A DNA stretch of 12,578 nucleotides. Source: Lysobacteraceae bacterium (GTDB lineage Bacteria; Pseudomonadota; Gammaproteobacteria; Xanthomonadales; Wenzhouxiangellaceae). Made by a program: the position numbers and the translations under genes. Below are positions 1 to 8,891 of the stretch, piece by piece. The notes beneath the pieces were generated by a model. It saw only the letters and a list, made by a program, of their open reading frames with translations. It was not told the DNA's origin and searched no databases. Where the stretch lies: the NCBI GenBank assembly GCA_020201235.1, contig JAIVHD010000246.1, positions 1 through 12,578 of the forward strand. The letters are read 5' to 3'. Positions within the stretch are counted from its first letter, which is position 1. Each line of letters opens with the position of its first letter.

Positions 1-870
1 GATAACACGCCGACCTTCGACTGTCGTTCCGCCAACCGTGATGCGCGCCTGCGACTCTTCTTTACTAAACTTCCAGGCATTCGAAAGCAGGTTCTTCAAG
101 GCGATGGTCAGCATGTTGGCGTCGCCCCGGAGCGTCAGCCCCGATTGTATATCGACTTCCACTCGGCGCTCGGGATCCTCTTCCCGAAACTCGGTCACGA
201 TTCGCTCAGCGATCCGGGACAAATCCACGGTTTCGTTTTTCAGCGCCTCCCGCTGGAGTCGGGACAAGCTCAACAGGTCATCGATGATAGCTTCCATGCT
301 GTCGCTCGCTTCCTGAATGCGGTCCAGATAATGCTGCCCCTGCTCGTCGAGCTGTCCGGAATGGTTGGTTTTCAGCGCCTCGCTGAACCCCGACATCCTT
401 CGCAGCGGCGCCCGCAGGTCGTGTGAAACCGCGGAACTGAACTGCTCGAGTTCGTAATTGGCATTCTCCAGCGCGCGATTGGCGTGTACAAGGTCGTCGC
501 GGGTGGGTATCGACCGGATGTTGGGCAGCAGTCTGAAAAGCATGTAGGCAGTCGGAATGGAAGCCGCGGCCGTTACGAACTTGATGCCGCCGGAGAACCA
601 GAAATTCGCGTTCCAGATATTCCAGATCTCCACCCAGTGTGTGGCGCCGCAGGCGACGATGAAAACACCGAACAGCACGAACATCCAGGAAAACGGCAAG
701 TCCCGGCGTTGCCTGACCACCATCAGCAGCGCAATCGGGATCGCCACGTATGCCAGGCCGATCAGCGCATCGGAGCCCGCGTGCAGTATGACGAGGCTCG
801 GCGTCCAAAGGTAGCAATGACCATGCGGAATAAACCCTTGCGCCAGGGTTCCAAACGCTGAAACATCCAT
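1..870 (-). CDS. Ethylene-receptor-like (ETR1-type) sensor histidine kinase, 3' end cut by window edge
   Basis: 290 codons are open from ATG at 870 to base 1. GGGGGA at 877-882 is a good ribosome site 6 nt upstream of the start. Residues about 26-116 form three hydrophobic helices resembling the ethylene-binding domain of plant ETR1 and cyanobacterial Etr1: SDALIGLAYVAIP, then VACGATHWVEIWN. D34, Y41, I44, P45, C74 and H78 match ETR1 D25, Y32, I35, P36, C65 and H69 with a constant offset of 9 and no gap; C65/H69 hold the copper cofactor in ETR1. A short coiled-coil-like linker leads to a phytochrome-type HisKA domain with H150 in VSHDLRAP as the likely phosphorylation site. The HATPase N-box NLLENAWKF is at 260-268; the G boxes lie beyond the edge. 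An inner-membrane autokinase is expected. The ligand is inferred from residue conservation and could differ. The partner response regulator is not in the window. Confidence 0.93.
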   Translation of the reverse strand, partial: MDVSAFGTLAQGFIPHGHCYLWTPSLVILHAGSDALIGLAYVAIPIALLMVVRQRRDLPFSWMFVLFGVFIVACGATHWVEIWNIWNANFWFSGGIKFVTAAASIPTAYMLFRLLPNIRSIPTRDDLVHANRALENANYELEQFSSAVSHDLRAPLRRMSGFSEALKTNHSGQLDEQGQHYLDRIQEASDSMEAIIDDLLSLSRLQREALKNETVDLSRIAERIVTEFREEDPERRVEVDIQSGLTLRGDANMLTIALKNLLSNAWKFSKEESQARITVGGTTVEGRRVI

Positions 871-922
871 ATTTAATCCCCCGCCTGTCGGCGAATTTTC
901 GGACAGCTTACTGCGCCCACTT

Positions 923-951
923 TTGGTGGGTCAAGTAACTGGACTTAATAG
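923..951 (+). promoter_or_regulatory. Candidate sigma70 promoter of the PAS-GGDEF-EAL gene
   Basis: TTGGTG at 923-928 and TAATAG at 946-951 are separated by 17 bp. They lie about 36 bp before the GTG start at 988, in the divergent intergenic region. The same region holds a small stem-loop, CCCAC-TTTTG-GTGGG (916-930), which overlaps the -35 box. The match is moderate and the call is inference only. Confidence 0.3.
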
Positions 952-987
952 TAGTGTACAGTTCGGGAAGGTGATCGGAGTTCAAGA

Positions 988-1768
988 GTGCTTCACGGTA
1001 AATCACTAAAACGCACGGGACCGCAGGAAATACCGGGACGCCCGGCGCGTTTGTCCCGTTCCGGCCGTCGAATCGCGTTCATCTACCTCGCACTGGGCCT
1101 CCTGTGGATCCTGGCATCGGACGCCTTCCTGGTGTTCACTGGCGTCCTCGATCTGGGCACCTTTGCGGAAGCAGCGATCAAGGGCAGTGTGTTCGTCGGG
1201 CTCTCGGCGCTGGCGCTGTATCTGCTGGTGCGATACCTGCCCGCCGGGCGGCGCTGGCTGCCGGTGCTGGTCGCCCTGGCCTATCTCGCGATGGGTCTGG
1301 CCTGGATCGTCGCATCGGACTTCTACCTGTTCCAAACGGGTCATTTGAGCCGTGAGGCCTTGTGGATGCAGATGTTCAAGGGCGCCGCCTTTGTCACGAT
1401 CTCGGCTTTCGTCGTCCTACTGATTACCCAGCTCATGGAAGGCCAGCAAATGACCGGTTCGATGGCCCGGGGCGAGGGGGAAAAGATGCCGGGTCTCCGA
1501 ATCCATCCTTTGCGCGTCTCCACGCTGTTCGGCGTCATTCTGCTGGGCCTGTCCCTGATCCTGGATGTCTACGAGCTGGCGGTAGCCCAGGTGATTACAC
1601 CCGCCAAATTTGGTCGGCACGTGGTGGAAAGCCTGGTTCTGACACTTTTCGCGGGTGCCACCCTGTTTCTGTTGCTACGCTTCTATATTTCCAAGGCCAA
1701 GGCCGCCAATCAGGAACTCGTCGCCAGCGAGGCGCGCTACCGGGCGCTTTTCGAGCACACCCCGGATA
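988..1768 (+). pseudogene. N-terminal membrane half of a frameshifted PAS-GGDEF-EAL protein
   Basis: The GTG start at 988 has GGAG at 977-980, 7 nt upstream. The protein has six predicted membrane helices (about residues 29-49, 63-84, 91-112, 130-149, 178-200, 211-233). The first two pairs are an internal duplication: WILASD...KGSVFV..SA and WIVASD...KGAAFV..SA. A helical linker then enters a PAS domain at ARYRALFEHTPD (249-260). There the frame is lost: after GAT at 1765-1767 an extra A (1768) shifts reading, and the original frame runs on as arginine-rich nonsense to a stop at 2286. Removing that A joins this part directly to the downstream frame, as D-GTRLPAEV, giving a protein of about 866 residues. 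Most of the first PAS domain (roughly 70 residues by family expectation) is also missing, so both a deletion and a frameshift are present. It senses an unknown signal at the membrane. Confidence 0.8.
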
Positions 1769-3589
1769 GGCACCAGGCTTCCAGCAGAGGTGACCACTGT
1801 ACGCTTCCAGAGCCTGGAAGGAGAAGCACAGTCCTTTGTGGTGGCACGCGACATCAGCCGACGCCTGGAAGCCGAGCGCCAACTCAAGCTGGTGGCCGCC
1901 GCTTTTCGCGGCGCCGGCGAGGCGATGATGCTTTGCGATTCGGATTTCGTGATCCTGGACGTCAACCAGGCCTATACGCGCCTCATCGGGTGCGAACGGG
2001 ACGATGCCATCGGCACCCTCCCCCTGTTCCTGGAAGTCGAACAGCAAGAGAGTCACCTCCGCCAGGGGCTCCAGACCGAAGGCCGCTGGCGCGGCGATCT
2101 GCTACAGCGGCGCATGGACGGTCACATGTTCGTGTCGCGGGCCGCCGTCAGCGAAGTAGAGGATCCCGAAGGGGGCGACCCCAACCTGGTGGTGAATTTC
2201 GAAGACATTTCCCAACTTCGCGACTACGAGCGCAAGGTCGATTATCTCTCCTACCACGACCTCCTGACCGGCTTGCCCAATCATGACGCCCTGAAGGATT
2301 GGTTTCAGAGCGCGGATATTCCCGGCGAGGCCGGGGCGATACCGAATCGGGCCCTGGCCGTCATGAACGTGGACCGGCTCAAGACCGTAAACAATGCCTT
2401 CGGCCACGCAGTGGGCGACAAGCTGATCGAGGAGCTGGCCCGGCGCCTGAGAAAGATGTGCGGCAGAGACGACTACGTGGCACGGTTGCTCGGCGATGAC
2501 TTCGTGATGGTGGTTGGAGACGTTACCGACGCCGAGGAGGCAATCGACATCATCCGTCAACGACTGCAGAGCTTGACCGCTCCCCTTCAGCTCGACCAGG
2601 CCCCCGTTCATCCCACCGTTTGTGTCGGCATCGCCCTGTCTCCGGAGCACGGCATCAACCTGGAAGAGCTTCTCCGCAAGGCCGACATGGCCAAGTATGA
2701 GGCCAAGCGCCATGGTCGCGGCGAGGTTGTCGTGTTCAGCCCGGAAATGACCGAGGAGATGGAATTCCGGCTCCTGATCGAGCGCCGGCTCCGGAGCGGC
2801 CTCGACAACCAGGAGTTCCTGCTCCACTACCAGCCCTCCGTTACGCTATCGAACAACCGGGTCATCGGGTTGGAGGCCCTGTTGCGTTGGCACAGTCCCG
2901 AACTCGGCATGGTGGGTCCGGATCGTTTCATCCCGGTGGCCGAGGAAAACGGCATGATCATCGAGCTGGGCGCCTGGGTCTTCGAGGAGGTCTGCCGCCA
3001 GATTGCCGAGTGGCGGGACGAGGGCGTCCCCTTCGGCTGCATCGCGGTCAACTTTTCGCCCATCCAGTTCCAGGATTCAGGTTTGTTGGAAGCGATCCGG
3101 ACGTCCATGCAACGTCACGGCGTGCAGGGCTGCGAGATCCGGGTCGAGATCACCGAAAGCGTGCTGGTCATTGATCCGGACTGGACCGTGCAACTGCTCA
3201 AGAGCCTGCGGGAAATGGGTATCCTGATCTCGGTCGACGATTTCGGGACCGGCTATTCGTCGCTGGCCTACCTAAAAAAATTCCCGGTGGACTTTGTCAA
3301 GCTCGACAAATCCTTCGTCGGCGGGCTGCCGCACGACAAGTCCGATGCCAACATCGCCGCCTCGGTCATCGACCTGGGCCAACGCCTCGGCCTGGGAATC
3401 GTGGCCGAAGGCGTCGAGCGCAAGAATCAGCTCGAATTCCTGAAGAACGCGGGTTGCCCGGAAGGGCAAGGCTACTACTTCAGTCGTCCCATGGATGTGG
3501 AAAACACCGCCCGGCTGTTAAAGAACCACACGGAGCTTCCGGTCAGCCGGCCGGACGACGAATGCAGCGAGGCCGAATCCGGCGAGTAG
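1769..3589 (+). CDS. PAS-GGDEF(degenerate)-EAL c-di-GMP phosphodiesterase, C-terminal half
   Basis: This is the cytoplasmic output half of the frameshifted gene starting at 988. It opens with the end of a PAS domain (GTRLPAEV...VVARDISRR), then a complete second PAS from about 1886 to 2220. The GGDEF domain has the usual entry YHDLLTGLPN, but the signature is LGDDF (2489-2503): the first Gly and the Glu are replaced, so cyclase activity is unlikely. The EAL domain looks complete: EAL (2873-2881), NFSP, EITES, DDFGTGYSS (from 3236), KLDKSF and EGVE. It should therefore hydrolyse c-di-GMP, with the GGDEF domain perhaps acting as a GTP-binding regulator, as in other composite proteins. If the frameshift is real, translation would need an internal start; ATG ATG at 1925-1930 is in frame but lies inside PAS2 without an obvious ribosome site. 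The formal open frame begins at 1655, but those first codons are out of frame with the real protein. Confidence 0.88.
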   Translation, partial: GTRLPAEVTTVRFQSLEGEAQSFVVARDISRRLEAERQLKLVAAAFRGAGEAMMLCDSDFVILDVNQAYTRLIGCERDDAIGTLPLFLEVEQQESHLRQGLQTEGRWRGDLLQRRMDGHMFVSRAAVSEVEDPEGGDPNLVVNFEDISQLRDYERKVDYLSYHDLLTGLPNHDALKDWFQSADIPGEAGAIPNRALAVMNVDRLKTVNNAFGHAVGDKLIEELARRLRKMCGRDDYVARLLGDDFVMVVGDVTDAEEAIDIIRQRLQSLTAPLQLDQAPVHPTVCVGIALSPEHGINLEELLRKADMAKYEAKRHGRGEVVVFSPEMTEEMEFRLLIERRLRSGLDNQEFLLHYQPSVTLSNNRVIGLEALLRWHSPELGMVGPDRFIPVAEENGMIIELGAWVFEEVCRQIAEWRDEGVPFGCIAVNFSPIQFQDSGLLEAIRTSMQRHGVQGCEIRVEITESVLVIDPDWTVQLLKSLREMGILISVDDFGTGYSSLAYLKKFPVDFVKLDKSFVGGLPHDKSDANIAASVIDLGQRLGLGIVAEGVERKNQLEFLKNAGCPEGQGYYFSRPMDVENTARLLKNHTELPVSRPDDECSEAESGE

Positions 3590-4316: not shown

Positions 4317-4919
4317 CTACAACCAGCCTTGATCGCGAGCGATTCGCCAGGCCTCGATGCGGTTGTCGGCATTGAGCTTGCCGATCGCCTCGGACAGGTA
4401 ATTGCGCACGGTGCCTTCGGCCAGGTGAAGCCGGCGACCCATCTCAGCGTTGGAAATGCCTTCGCCGGCCAGCCGCAGCACCTGGCGCTCGCGCATCGTG
4501 AGCGGGTCTTTGGCATCAAACGCGGTCAAGGCCAGTTCGGGGGCGATCACGCGCTCTCCGCGCTGCGCCCGGCGGATGGCATCGGCCAGCTTTTCGGCCG
4601 GCGTGTCTTTCAGCAGGTAGCCCGAAACGCCGGCTTCCAGCGCCCGTCGGAGATAGCCCGGCCGGGCGAACGTGGTCAGGATCACGACCCGGATTTCCGG
4701 ATGCTCGCGGGCCAGCCATTCGGCCAGCTCCAGGCCGGTCATGCCGGGCATTTCGATATCGCTGACGACCATGTCGGGCCGGTGTTGCTCGATCAGCGCG
4801 CGGGCTTCATCGCCGTCGGCGGCGCGGCCGACAACATCCAGATCGTCTTCCAGCGCCAGCAACTGGCCAATCGCACCGAGCAGCAGGTTCTGGTCTTCGG
4901 CCAGCAGGATGCGGATCAT
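4317..4919 (-). CDS. NarL/DesR-type response regulator
   Basis: 200 residues, the usual length for the NarL/FixJ class. The receiver domain (1-120) has the acidic pair E8-D9, phospho-acceptor D54 in VVSDIEMPG, T81/T82 and K103 in YLLKD. A LuxR-type helix-turn-helix occupies about 138-181 (LTMRERQVLRLAGEGISNAE, then EGTVRNYLSEAIGKL). It should bind DNA as a dimer once phosphorylated by the kinase encoded immediately upstream. The genes overlap by 4 bp (ATGA), indicating translational coupling. Its closest known relatives by architecture are DesR of Bacillus and YvfU-type regulators encoded with ABC-2 transporters. Its target may be this operon's own upstream palindrome, which is inference. Confidence 0.95.
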   Translation of the reverse strand: MIRILLAEDQNLLLGAIGQLLALEDDLDVVGRAADGDEARALIEQHRPDMVVSDIEMPGMTGLELAEWLAREHPEIRVVILTTFARPGYLRRALEAGVSGYLLKDTPAEKLADAIRRAQRGERVIAPELALTAFDAKDPLTMRERQVLRLAGEGISNAEMGRRLHLAEGTVRNYLSEAIGKLNADNRIEAWRIARDQGWL

Positions 4920-6028
4920 GGCAGGAGTGCGGCCTCTGGAAGCCGCGCGATGATTTGGGTGCCGGACCCGCTTTTCAATTGGAGTTCGCCACCCAGCGAC
5001 TCGATGCGCGCGCGCATACCCTGGACGCCGGAGCCTTCGGCCTTCAGGCCGCCTTGACCATCATCGGTAATCTCCAAACGCATGCCCTTGCCTTCTTTGG
5101 CGATCACAATTCGGCACCGCCGTGCGCCGGCGTGGCGAAGAATGTTGGTCACGGCCTCGCGCAGAATCAGCGCCAGCATAGCCTGGACCTGTAGCGGCGG
5201 GACAATGTCTGGATCACGCTCCAGTTCCAGTGCAACATCGGCTGCGCGCAGGCTGACCGCAACCTGCTCCAGCGCCTCGTTCAGGCCTTGTTCGTGCAGA
5301 CCGGAAATCGTTGCGCGCACCTCCTTGAGCGCCGTCCGCGCGGTTTGTTCGATGGCTTGCAGTTCCGCGCGCGCTCGCGCCGAATCGACCTCGAGCAGCT
5401 TTGCCGCCAGTTCGCTCTTGACCGTGATCAACGACAGCGTGTGACCGAGCACGTCGTGCAGATCGCGCGCGATACGCTCGCGTTCCGCGACCCGAGCCAG
5501 GCGTTTGACCTCGGCCTGCTTAAGGCGCAACTCGGCGTTGTGGCGCTCCTTTTCCGAAAACACGATGTTGGCGGTGCCGATGATTACGCTGATCAATGCG
5601 CCGGGAAGCCAGTAGACCAGGACCGGGTGGGCCAGCCAGGCGGTCGCCGCCACGGTCGCTGCCACACCGGCCAACACCATGAACGCGATGCGCGGTGGCC
5701 CCACACGGTAGGCGAAGCTCGCCGCATAGATGAACAGCACGCCCGAACCGGCGTTGAACGGGGCCCATGCGATTGCCAATAGCGCAAGTACCGCGATGTG
5801 GCCCATGGCCGAAGCGCCACTTCGTCGGTAGGCGCTGAAATACAGCACAGCAAACGCGATCAAGGTGCCAATGATGGCGATCGACTCAACTGGCCCGGGC
5901 GATCGAAAGATGTACTCGATGAAGAAAAAGCCGTAATAGATCAGCCACAGATACGGCAGCCAGCCGAGCCCCAGCTCGGCCGGCAACAGCCGCTGATGCA
6001 ATGCCATGAGCCGATTGCCTGGATTCAT
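4916..6028 (-). CDS. DesK-like sensor histidine kinase (HisKA_3)
   Basis: 370 residues. Five or six membrane helices fill residues about 22-156 with very short loops, so there is no extracytoplasmic sensor domain; the signal is probably read in the membrane, as in DesK. A coiled-coil stretch (160-182) leads to the HisKA_3 dimerisation helix with ERERIARDLHDVLGHTLS, H191 being the likely phosphorylation site. The HATPase part has N-box REAVTNILRHA (290-300), DDGQGG (322-327) and GSGVQGMRARIE (332-343). Its ATG overlaps the amidohydrolase stop (ATGA), and its own stop overlaps the response-regulator start. There is no strong ribosome site of its own, so it probably relies on coupled translation. 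A 14-bp palindrome sits 2 bp upstream of its start. Confidence 0.95.
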   Translation of the reverse strand: MNPGNRLMALHQRLLPAELGLGWLPYLWLIYYGFFFIEYIFRSPGPVESIAIIGTLIAFAVLYFSAYRRSGASAMGHIAVLALLAIAWAPFNAGSGVLFIYAASFAYRVGPPRIAFMVLAGVAATVAATAWLAHPVLVYWLPGALISVIIGTANIVFSEKERHNAELRLKQAEVKRLARVAERERIARDLHDVLGHTLSLITVKSELAAKLLEVDSARARAELQAIEQTARTALKEVRATISGLHEQGLNEALEQVAVSLRAADVALELERDPDIVPPLQVQAMLALILREAVTNILRHAGARRCRIVIAKEGKGMRLEITDDGQGGLKAEGSGVQGMRARIESLGGELQLKSGSGTQIIARLPEAALLP

Positions 6029-7800
6029 TCCAGGCGCGCCTGGTGGATGCTGAAATCGACCGCGTGATCCTGGCCGCCGGCGAATATGCCGATGGCGCGC
6101 AGCCGCTTTGGATCCAGCCCGCCAACGGAATCCAGCTCGATGGTCACCACGCGGCCGGCCTTGATTGGCACCTGCGCTGGCCGCGCGGACTGGCTTTCGC
6201 CGCTGAAGAACATCACGCTATAGTCGACGTCGTCGCCCTGGACTTCGACCTGCAAGCGCCGGTAATTGGCGTGATCAACCGGCTGCATCGGTGTTGCGCT
6301 TGCAAACCACATGGCACCAGCGTACGGGAACATGTAGCCGTCCGCCACTCGCCCCGTCACCTGCGCAAGACCGGTCGTCTCCCAGGCAAGCACGGCGCTG
6401 GATTGGCCGCCCATGTAGTCGTCGGCGGCCGCCATCCAGCGATCCGGCGCGGCCAGAAGATCGATCGGGCCCTCGACCTGCGTGCTTGCCGGCTCCGCGA
6501 CGTCGGCGGCAGGCCGTGCCGTGGCCACCGGCTGGCCGTTCTTCCACACCGCCTCGATTCGTGCCGTCGCTTCGATGTCGCTGGCCGGGTTGCCGTTGAC
6601 GATCACCAGATCGGCGCGGCAGCCCGGTTTGAGGCAGCCACGCCGGTCCAGGCCGAACGCTTGCGCGGGTCGTGAAGTCGCCGCACGCAACGCATCGATT
6701 GGCGTCAGCCCAGCCTCGACCAGCAATCGCAGCGCGTGGTGCATGGATGCACCGTAGGTGGTGCCGGGGTTGGGCGCGTCGCTGCCGGCCAGAATCGGCA
6801 CACCGGCGCGCTGCAAGGCTTCGATATTGTGTAGCAGCGTGGCCCAGCCATCGGAGTCCGCGTTGGCACCGGGGAAGCGTGCTTTGAGATTGTGGCGCTG
6901 TGCTTCACTCAGGCGCGCGCCGAGCACCGGATGATCCAGCAACCATTCGGTATCGTCGTGGCCCCAGGCTGCGGCCAGCACCGGCGTGGTCGGTACGACA
7001 AAGATGTCGGCCTCCCGAGCCGTGGTGATGAATGCCTCATCGACACGCTGATCGCCGAACAGGTGCACCAGTCCGTCAACACCGGCCTCGATCGCTGCAA
7101 TCGCGTCAGCATAGGTCGACACATGCGCCACCGCCATGAGTCCGGCGGCATGCGCAGCCTCGGCCAGGGCCGCGACCGTAGCCGCATCAAGTCTGGGCAA
7201 CTCGCGCTCGCCCCAGCCAGGTTCAATCACGATCTTGATCCAGTCCGAGCCCTCGGCCTTGCGCGCCGCCACCCAAGCGGCCGCCTGCTCCGGCCCGCTC
7301 AAGGTCGGCACCTCGATGCCGTACTGGGTGCCGTGGCCGCCCGGTGCGGTAGCCAGAAACCCGGCCGAGTACAGGTCGGCCTGGTCGGTGGGCGCCAGCA
7401 ACTCGCGTTCGGCGTGGGTCCGCTCGAAGTCCAGCGGCGGCCGGAACATGTCGAGCATGGTGGTCACGCCGAAGCGCAGCGCATCGGCCCGAGCCGTCCC
7501 GAAACTGTGCACGTGCGCGTCGATCAGCCCGGGCAGGATGGTCTTGCCGGAGACGTCGACCGCCTCGGCGCCATCATCAACGACAAGATTTCGACCCAGC
7601 GCCTCGACCTGGCCTTCGGCAATTACCAGCGTTGCATCGTCGATGAATGTTTCACCGTCGAAAACGCGCGCCCCGGTGATAAAAATCCGCTCGACTGTTG
7701 GCGCTGAATCCGGCGCGTCCCGGGCCGGTTCGGGCAACAACAGCAGCACGCCGGCCAATCCGGCGATAAGCAAAATCAGGATCCATGTGAAATTTTTCAT
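6025..7800 (-). CDS. Exported or membrane-anchored amidohydrolase with C-terminal CIA30-like domain
   Basis: 591 residues. An N-terminal hydrophobic helix (about 5-22) after MKNF acts as a signal anchor or signal peptide, so the enzyme should work outside the cytoplasm. The metal-dependent amidohydrolase fold covers about 36-430: DAHVH with H96 and H98, K189 in DWIKIVIE (possible bridging lysine), H226 (VAHVS), H246 (LVHLF) and D341 (LAGSDAPNPG). This is the imidazolonepropionase/prolidase-like branch; the substrate is not predictable. Residues about 445-591 form an added beta-rich domain resembling CIA30/galactose-binding-like folds (DYMGGQSSAVL, FPYAGAMWFA, RRLQVEVQGDDVDYSVMFF, IGIFAGG). 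GGAG at 7806-7809 is the ribosome site. ATGA overlaps on both sides tie it to the XRE gene and the kinase gene. Confidence 0.92.
   Translation of the reverse strand: MKNFTWILILLIAGLAGVLLLLPEPARDAPDSAPTVERIFITGARVFDGETFIDDATLVIAEGQVEALGRNLVVDDGAEAVDVSGKTILPGLIDAHVHSFGTARADALRFGVTTMLDMFRPPLDFERTHAERELLAPTDQADLYSAGFLATAPGGHGTQYGIEVPTLSGPEQAAAWVAARKAEGSDWIKIVIEPGWGERELPRLDAATVAALAEAAHAAGLMAVAHVSTYADAIAAIEAGVDGLVHLFGDQRVDEAFITTAREADIFVVPTTPVLAAAWGHDDTEWLLDHPVLGARLSEAQRHNLKARFPGANADSDGWATLLHNIEALQRAGVPILAGSDAPNPGTTYGASMHHALRLLVEAGLTPIDALRAATSRPAQAFGLDRRGCLKPGCRADLVIVNGNPASDIEATARIEAVWKNGQPVATARPAADVAEPASTQVEGPIDLLAAPDRWMAAADDYMGGQSSAVLAWETTGLAQVTGRVADGYMFPYAGAMWFASATPMQPVDHANYRRLQVEVQGDDVDYSVMFFSGESQSARPAQVPIKAGRVVTIELDSVGGLDPKRLRAIGIFAGGQDHAVDFSIHQARLE
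6030..6043. repeat. 14-bp perfect palindrome at the amidohydrolase/kinase junction
   Basis: CCAGGCGCGCCTGG is self-complementary. It lies in the last codons of the amidohydrolase gene, 2 bp before the kinase ATG at 6028. In mRNA it could fold over the kinase initiation region. It may also be chance in GC-rich codons (Gln-Ala-Arg-Leu). Confidence 0.4.
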
Positions 7801-8279
7801 GTTTGCTCCGTGTAGCGGCGAGGGTCCGCCTGGCGTGATCGTTGTTCACCGGTGGCCGCGAGGCTGCGGCGCTGCCGCTCCAACAACCAGCCTAAAACAG
7901 CCGAGACCGCTCCGACCAGCAGCCCGATTACGCCCAGCGACATTCCAGCTGTTGCCGCCGATGTGCCGCCATTGGCGAAATCCAGACCCACGCCGGCCAC
8001 CGCGCCGACCGCGCCCAGCGCTACTCCGGCCGTGCCGAAACGATGACCGCGTTCGATGCTGCGCAATAGCCGGGCCTGCTCCAGTGAGGTGTCTTCGAGC
8101 GCATCAGCGTCGATTTCGAACACCGAGGCCAGCGCCATGGCGGTTTCCATCGAAGCCACCCCGCCACGCTCCAGGCGCTGAATCGTGCGTGCGCTCAGCC
8201 CGGCCGCCTCGGCCAGGCTCTCCTGCGACATGCCGTGACGGTTGCGCAGATCCCGAACCAGATCGCTGTCGATTTTCAT
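7797..8279 (-). CDS. XRE-family regulator with two C-terminal membrane helices
   Basis: 160 residues from ATG 8279. AGGA at 8289-8292, 9 nt upstream, supports this start over the longer open frame that runs in from 8891. Residues 5-60 are a Cro/C1-type helix-turn-helix (LRNRHGMSQESLAEAAGLSA, then RTIQRLERG). A short linker (EQARLLRSIERGHR) leads to two glycine/alanine-rich membrane helices, about 81-101 and 111-133, and a basic cytoplasmic tail. It is therefore a membrane-tethered DNA-binding protein, whose signal is presumably read in the membrane. Its stop overlaps the amidohydrolase start (ATGA). A 104-bp gap separates it from the permease stop, so a secondary promoter there is possible. 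Its targets are unknown; self-regulation of this operon is a reasonable guess. Confidence 0.9.
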   Translation of the reverse strand: MKIDSDLVRDLRNRHGMSQESLAEAAGLSARTIQRLERGGVASMETAMALASVFEIDADALEDTSLEQARLLRSIERGHRFGTAGVALGAVGAVAGVGLDFANGGTSAATAGMSLGVIGLLVGAVSAVLGWLLERQRRSLAATGEQRSRQADPRRYTEQT

Positions 8280-8383
8280 CTTCGCTGTTCCTGTTGCCTG
8301 AAAGTTGTCGTCTATTGTGGTGCGGGCCAGAGCGAACCGCCACGACACGGCCCCGACAGCGCCGCGACACGAGCCCGCAGGAA

Positions 8384-8891
8384 TCATGCGCGAACCCCAT
8401 CCAGCCGGCGCCAGCCAATCGCGGTCAGCACTCCGAACAGCACGCTGTAGCCGAGCAGTGCGGCGACCGAAACCATGACATCGGCCGGTTTGACGGCGGC
8501 GACGTGCAGCGCAAGCTCGGCCAGATGATACGGCGGCAGCCAGGGTGCGAAGGCTTGCAGCCAGGCGGGAAACTGGGTGACCGGCTCCCACAGTCCGGAC
8601 AGAAATACCATGGGCAGGAATACGATATTGATCACTCAGCCAGCCCTGAGCGCGCTCGGTGGCGATGCCGACGCCAAACGAGAACAATGCCGCGCCAACC
8701 ACACCGAAGGTCGCAAAGGTGCACAGCAGCCAGGCGGCCTGCCCGGGCACCATCACCAGGCCAAAAAACGCGTAGAACATCACCGGAAACAGCAGCGTCG
8801 GCAACGTGTAGGCCGGTTCGCGCACCAGGTTCAGACACTGGGCGCGGATCAGTTGCAGCCACGCGCCGGGCTGGATGGCTTCGATATTCAT
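8384..8891 (-). pseudogene. ABC-2 type transporter permease, internally deleted and frameshifted
   Basis: The ATG at 8891 has AGGAGG (8896-8901) 4 nt upstream and overlaps the ATPase stop (ATGA). The first 83 or so residues are a normal ABC-2 permease start: amphipathic IRAQCLNLVREPAYTL, two membrane helices, then GVGIATERAQGWL. At about 8636-8639 the frame is lost. The matching C-terminal half (INIVFLPMVFLSGLWEPV, WLQAFAPWLPPYHLAEL, two more helices, end at 8384) continues in another frame directly after the break. About 80 residues expected between them (the LKRASP...PFCALGLALG part of the family) are absent, so this is a deletion of roughly 240 bp plus a frame change. The unshifted frame has no stop and reads on into the XRE gene. 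As written, no functional permease can be made. The natural substrate is unknown. Confidence 0.85.

Follow-up and report, generated by a model that had tools for sequence, protein, structure and literature searches.

Does a histidine kinase gene that runs off the edge of a Wenzhouxiangellaceae contig encode an ethylene receptor, and if so, through which output would such a receptor act? The window, that is, the whole stretch of DNA analyzed here, is one complete contig of 12,578 bp from a 439-contig assembly, with base 1 at the contig end. We put the probability at about 0.7 that its first gene specifies an ethylene receptor of the SynEtr1/AzoEtr1 kind, which would couple a phytochrome-like kinase to a single-domain response regulator encoded beyond the contig and serve a physiology linked to cyclic di-GMP (c-di-GMP). 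The features on which this joint reading draws are collected in Table 1.

Table 1. Positions of the sensor gene, its predicted elements and the adjoining divergent gene in the window
Feature	Position	Strand	Basis and remarks
Ethylene-receptor-like sensor histidine kinase	1..870	-	ATG start; 290 codons, open up to the contig end, where the 3' end is cut
ETR1_N (PF25487) membrane sensor domain	511..795	-	Pfam
Motif P-H-G-x-C-x-x-W, codons 15-22, in the N-terminal tail (predicted periplasmic)	805..828	-	Alignment
Predicted TM helix 1, residues 24-54, with D34, Y41, I44 and P45	709..801	-	AlphaFold and alignment
Predicted TM helix 2, residues 61-86, with I71 and the putative Cu(I) ligands C74 and H78	613..690	-	AlphaFold and alignment
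Predicted TM helix 3, residues 90-119, with K97 (ETR1 K91)	514..603	-	AlphaFold and alignment
HisKA dimerization/phospho-acceptor domain; H150 (SHDLRAP) presumed phospho-acceptor	250..450	-	Pfam and alignment
Start of HATPase domain, cut at the contig end	1..126	-	By position in P0001 (HATPase 249-357)
Intergenic region of the two divergent genes, alignable in part to G014	871..987	.	DNA comparison
Divergent TM-PAS-PAS-GGDEF-EAL gene, broken	988..3589	+	Pfam and comparison with G014

Domain Architecture and Kinase Core

The Pfam ETR1_N model matches residues 26–120 of the sensor with 121.4 bits against a cut-off of 27 (E = 1.9e-35) and is followed by HisKA at residues 141–207, in agreement with the initial annotation, which had proposed a complete ETR1-type site in a bacterial kinase. 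The HATPase domain just begins within the window and is complete in the full-length relative P0001, a rescan of which returned ETR1_N, HisKA and HATPase, as in its precomputed domains. The 14 closest relatives (60–92% identity, 358–362 amino acids) all carry this ETR1_N-HisKA-HATPase arrangement, with no receiver domain among their precomputed Pfam assignments, and alignment A1, comprising the window protein and 57 homologues, displays the conserved kinase residues. No Rfam family matched the window at gathering scores and no sigma-70 promoter-like site was found at window positions 700–1200.

Among solved kinases the nearest core is 8f71, the kinase of bacteriophytochrome RpBphP2, at 3.5e-12 with the window fragment and 3.8e-35 with P0001, HK853 being likewise among the nearest for the latter. 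Plant ETR1 (4pl9) matches P0001 at 6.8e-4 and comes last among the best 60 of 64 chains, so that the earlier assignment of the HisKA to a phytochrome-like rather than plant type is borne out. The likeness to bacteriophytochromes is one of kinase core: P0001 has no chromophore-binding PAS-GAF-PHY module and carries ETR1_N as its sensor instead.

The Putative Copper/Ethylene Site

Residues D34, Y41, I44, P45, C74 and H78 align, ungapped and at a constant offset of 9, with D25, Y32, I35, P36, C65 and H69 of ETR1, just as had been claimed from the sequence. I71 aligns at the same offset, likewise ungapped, with I62, presumably the seventh residue of the ETR1 ethylene-binding set and one that the annotation had not listed. 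K97 corresponds to ETR1 K91 at an offset of 6, and T100 is present as well. In alignment A1 no sequence departs from C74 or H78, and D34 is conserved at 90% or more. The number of residues reported as required for ethylene binding by ETR1 is seven (PMC11819568).

AlphaFold predicts three helices for P0001 and for window residues 1–130 (Table 1), the second ending at about residue 86 or 87, with a mean pLDDT of 88 for the window model. Their i/i+4 spacing on helix 2 puts C74 and H78 on the same helix face. Arginine is abundant in the loop joining helices 1 and 2, which points to a periplasmic N terminus. No solved structure matched the membrane domain at E values up to 1. Judged by its sequence, the gene is an ethylene-receptor-type sensor known in kind, which carries every binding residue and occurs in a lineage where such sensors are rare.

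The sensor is a further member of a known bacterial family of ethylene-receptor-like proteins, and the view in the initial annotation that for hardly any such protein a ligand or output has been defined has been overtaken by publications on AzoEtr1 (PMC11819568) and SynEtr1/UirS (PMC6682694, PMC5812497). AzoEtr1 of Azospirillum brasilense, like the window protein a bacterial histidine kinase with an ethylene-binding domain, is reported to bind ethylene and to alter biofilm formation and root colonization, with less biofilm on exposure to ethylene or on disruption of the receptor (PMC11819568). It has the seven binding residues at nearly equal positions, its D35, C75, H79 and K98 corresponding to D34, C74, H78 and K97 of the window, but it is 525 amino acids long with a PAS domain between sensor and kinase, whereas the closest relatives of the window protein, at 358–362 residues, have no PAS. 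The single-domain regulator gene of AzoEtr1 is described directly downstream of it (PMC11819568), whereas that of the window would lie off the contig. SynEtr1/UirS (Synechocystis Slr1212) likewise combines an ethylene-binding domain with a kinase and a known two-component relay (PMC6682694, PMC5812497); unlike it, P0001 has no UV-sensing cyanobacteriochrome domain. Plant ETR1/ERS1 share the seven residues and K91, while the GAF and receiver domains of ETR1 are absent from P0001, the ETR1 kinase core is far from that of P0001, and the N-terminal tail of ETR1 holds a Cys pair and no PHGxCxxW, where the window tail has this motif and a single Cys, C19.

Would such a domain necessarily report on ethylene? 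It may bind Cu(I) and respond to copper itself or to another small ligand (other alkenes, CO, a redox signal); conservation is limited to the binding residues, the additional His/Cys motif described below would suit copper handling, and we know of no ethylene source for the window organism. We nevertheless consider this unlikely. All seven residues are those of the ETR1 ethylene-binding set and are common to AzoEtr1, an ethylene binder (PMC11819568), and SynEtr1 is also reported to bind ethylene (PMC5812497).

A Conserved Motif in the N-Terminal Tail

The initial description of the site, right for the residues that it named, missed the seventh residue and also a PHGxCxxW motif that precedes the first helix. 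Across 234 bacterial sequences including the window, P15, H16, G17, C19 and W22 are conserved nearly as well as the copper ligands (H16 in 227/231, C19 in 229/233, C74 in 232/234 and H78 in 231/234). Because part of this set came from a search pattern containing the motif itself, the count was repeated on loci found with the Pfam ETR1_N model, which begins after the motif. An alignable domain was obtained from 167 of 176 such loci, the other 9 being left out; eight of the 176 (L185–L192) stem from four genomes reached through the motif-bearing pattern search, and not included were five more places that passed the cut-off, four being short fragments, and four that fell below it. A domain was scored as motif-bearing when HG was followed by one or two residues, C, two residues and W, F or Y; L289, in the DNA of which the motif is present but a stop codon directly follows its Cys, was counted as positive.

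By this measure 98 of the 99 domains with all seven residues carry the motif, the exception being L259 with Gln for His. It is present in 130/138 domains having both copper ligands versus 3/29 with a ligand lost and, for domains of at least 60 bits, in 128/131 versus 3/13 (Fisher p = 3e-20 for the association of motif and ligand pair, computed ignoring relatedness). On a tree built from the 155 distinct rows whose domains reach 35 bits or more, the ligand pair was lost independently nine times, with C19 and H16 lost in five of these nine events (six if L289 is scored as lost), W22 and W86 in one each and P116 in none; over the whole tree, L289 again scored as lost, C19 disappears 7 times and H16 8 times. 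P45 is lost in seven of the nine events and T100, T107 and I71 in five each, so that the co-loss signal is not unique to the motif; losses elsewhere are also frequent for T100, T107 and P45, with tree totals of 10, 15 and 13, respectively. There are also counter-examples in both directions: L287, L139 and L289 (with its stop) have the motif though their ligand pair is incomplete, and among the 138 domains with the pair there are 8 that do not have the motif, just L259 of these eight having all seven residues. Given these counter-examples and the shared co-loss, a copper-handling role for the motif is put forward as a proposal. The AlphaFold confidence of 55–58 in the tail is too low to place it relative to the copper site. 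A literature text search for the string PHGHCYLW returned no paper, which is weak evidence since alignments appear as figures.

A competing explanation holds that C19 does no more than form a dimer disulfide, along the lines put forward for cyanobacterial proteins, and is unconnected with copper. We regard this as a real contender at somewhat less than even odds: such a disulfide has been suggested for cyanobacterial receptors, which have a single N-terminal Cys, and plant receptors have two disulfide-forming Cys (PMC6682694), but a disulfide would have no use for H16, and this residue disappears about as frequently as C19 from domains that have lost copper ligands. Over 20 ligand-loss domains, H16 is kept in a fraction of 0.25 and C19 in 0.35 (0.30 and 0.40 with L289 as kept), versus 0.70 for W22.

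Departures from the canonical residues were encountered as well. L306, L308 and L309, from the cyanobacterial sample, are diverged domains that keep the Cys/His pair, have His for the binding Asp and are without PHGxC; they are possibly a subfamily with a different ligand. Three Rhodocyclales/Sulfuritalea receptors (L008, L009 and L010) have Glu in place of this Asp.

The Divergent GGDEF-EAL Gene and a Candidate Output

Divergent from the kinase lies a TM-PAS-PAS-GGDEF-EAL gene that is split over two frames. Its counterpart in G014, a member of the same family but another genus, is intact (957 amino acids) and aligns with the window DNA in two pieces at 83% and 75% identity; relative to it, the window has about 203 bp fewer between positions 1766 and 1791, in the first PAS domain, with a shift of frame. 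Upstream of the G014 gene, at the position of the window kinase, we found a receptor 5' stub that reads MEFMPHGQCYLWTSWLVL (alignment score 90; the highest of 200 shuffles reached 38). A stop comes next and then, in the same frame, the C-terminal half of a response regulator. This regulator remnant stops right after the receiver fold and is of the single-domain, CheY/RcpA/Rcp1-like kind, its best chains being 5brj (9.4e-14) and 5ic5 (9.5e-14), with RcpA (2.5e-6), Rcp1 (8e-6), PleD and PhoB also among the matches. The stub and the regulator end stand divergent to an intact GGDEF-EAL gene, an arrangement suggestive of a receptor-regulator operon next to a c-di-GMP gene, and the simplest reading is that an ancestral operon of this composition was divergent from GGDEF-EAL and was for the most part deleted in G014. 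By extension from this remnant, a partner regulator for the window kinase would be encoded off the contig. At fourfold-degenerate sites the two GGDEF-EAL parts of window and G014 are 0.70 and 0.77 identical, above the 0.52 of rpoB, the one reference gene used (comparisons with L326 and L327 were left out); this suggests that the module moved between the genus of the window and that of G014.

With the GGDEF-EAL gene of the window short of about 203 bp and out of frame, and the receptor of G014 reduced to a stub, the module may be decaying, and the rarity of ETR1_N in the family (1 of 43 genomes) would fit a sensor gene that is a remnant without working output. Against such a reading, which we think quite unlikely, the sensor frame is open across 290 codons with its seven key residues kept, six relatives of 77–92% identity are full length, and the GGDEF-EAL break could be a fault of the 439-contig assembly.

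ETR1_N loci elsewhere give further indications of output. Outside the window's own genome, its phylum yielded 43 ETR1_N places that pass the cut-off; the neighborhood of 40 was inspected (three were left out). By manual count, a receiver is present in the same protein at 19/40 and an adjoining same-strand regulator gene at 9/40, 28/40 together; the 12 loci with neither include two fusions of ETR1_N to GGDEF-EAL, L148 (confirmed by Pfam) and L151, the latter being the same gene as L105 and having Asn in place of the binding Asp. Another GGDEF gene occurs within 700 bp at 7/40 loci, where random genes drawn from these loci give 4.0 on average; with p = 0.04 the excess is weak and a clear statistical link between GGDEF and ETR1_N was rejected. 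We treat the c-di-GMP connection as a lead. No report of an ethylene-receptor domain fused to GGDEF was seen in the titles and abstract beginnings of the matching papers listed.

Two of these loci have unusual gene organizations. L148 (3951–7034) encodes an ETR1_N-PAS-GGDEF-EAL protein, possibly a receptor that passes ethylene directly to c-di-GMP. At L150 (4002–8070) ETR1_N stands alone as a protein of 198 amino acids; next come a PAS-HisKA-HATPase protein, encoded separately, and a response regulator, and the locus also has a divergent RR-GGDEF gene.

Distribution and Origin

ETR1_N is found in 1 of 43 genomes of the family (25 of which are at least 90% complete), in 3 of 299 of the order, in 12 of 369 of the class and in 28 of 398 of the phylum, the window's own genome being included each time; at E 0.001 instead of the Pfam cut-off the class and phylum counts become 16 and 29. 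It is present in 31/249 genomes from the order of G928 (35 at E 0.001) and in 44/146 from the phylum of the cyanobacterium that carries L013 (45 at E 0.001). These samples overlap in part. Sensor residues 1–160 matched nothing in a phage collection, and a phage origin was rejected on this ground. They did match 19 plasmid records, seven from Azospirillum, each at less than 60% identity. No paper on ethylene sensing in Wenzhouxiangella was found among literature matches judged by title and abstract beginning.

Absence of the domain from the other 42 family genomes might also mean that the contig was binned wrongly and that the kinase gene is foreign to the assembled organism, a possibility that we rate as very improbable: the amidohydrolase on the same contig, several named homologues of which come from Wenzhouxiangella, has 61% identical matches in the family members G013 and G009, and the one close match of the GGDEF-EAL protein (75%) is that of G014 with its adjoining receptor stub, the next being at most 40% among the matches listed.

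Two other regions of the contig deserve mention. The reading frame at 7797–8891 (-) resembles, by eye, a membrane transport protein at its start and a DNA-binding protein of the XRE type at its end, and is perhaps a frameshifted or fused pair. A HisKA_3 kinase beside a LuxR-type response regulator (4317–6028) is probably a separate system of its own.

Proposed Mechanism and Implications

In the ethylene-receptor reading that we favor, three membrane helices would hold Cu(I) through C74 and H78, with D34 and K97 placed as in ETR1. Ethylene, arriving from the membrane or the periplasm, would bind the copper and change autophosphorylation of H150 in the phytochrome-like core, after which phosphate would pass to a single-domain response regulator, the gene for which probably lies immediately downstream, beyond the contig end. 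As the presumed operon of the window's lineage lay divergent to a GGDEF-EAL gene, attachment or motility tied to c-di-GMP would be the likeliest physiology. A more far-reaching proposal, speculative and on balance doubtful, is that in bacterial ethylene receptors the tail His/Cys forms a second metal-binding pair, lost in plants, that completes or loads the Cu(I)-ethylene site, and that some gamma-proteobacterial receptors control c-di-GMP through a divergent GGDEF-EAL gene, as in the window's lineage, or by direct fusion to GGDEF-EAL.

It is the tail motif and the receptor/regulator/GGDEF-EAL remnant that merit further attention. A bacterial His/Cys pair whose losses tend to coincide with those of the known ligands provides a short list of mutants with which copper coordination could be addressed in SynEtr1 and AzoEtr1, and the remnant in the G014 neighborhood allows a guess at what the receptor may control in the family of the window.
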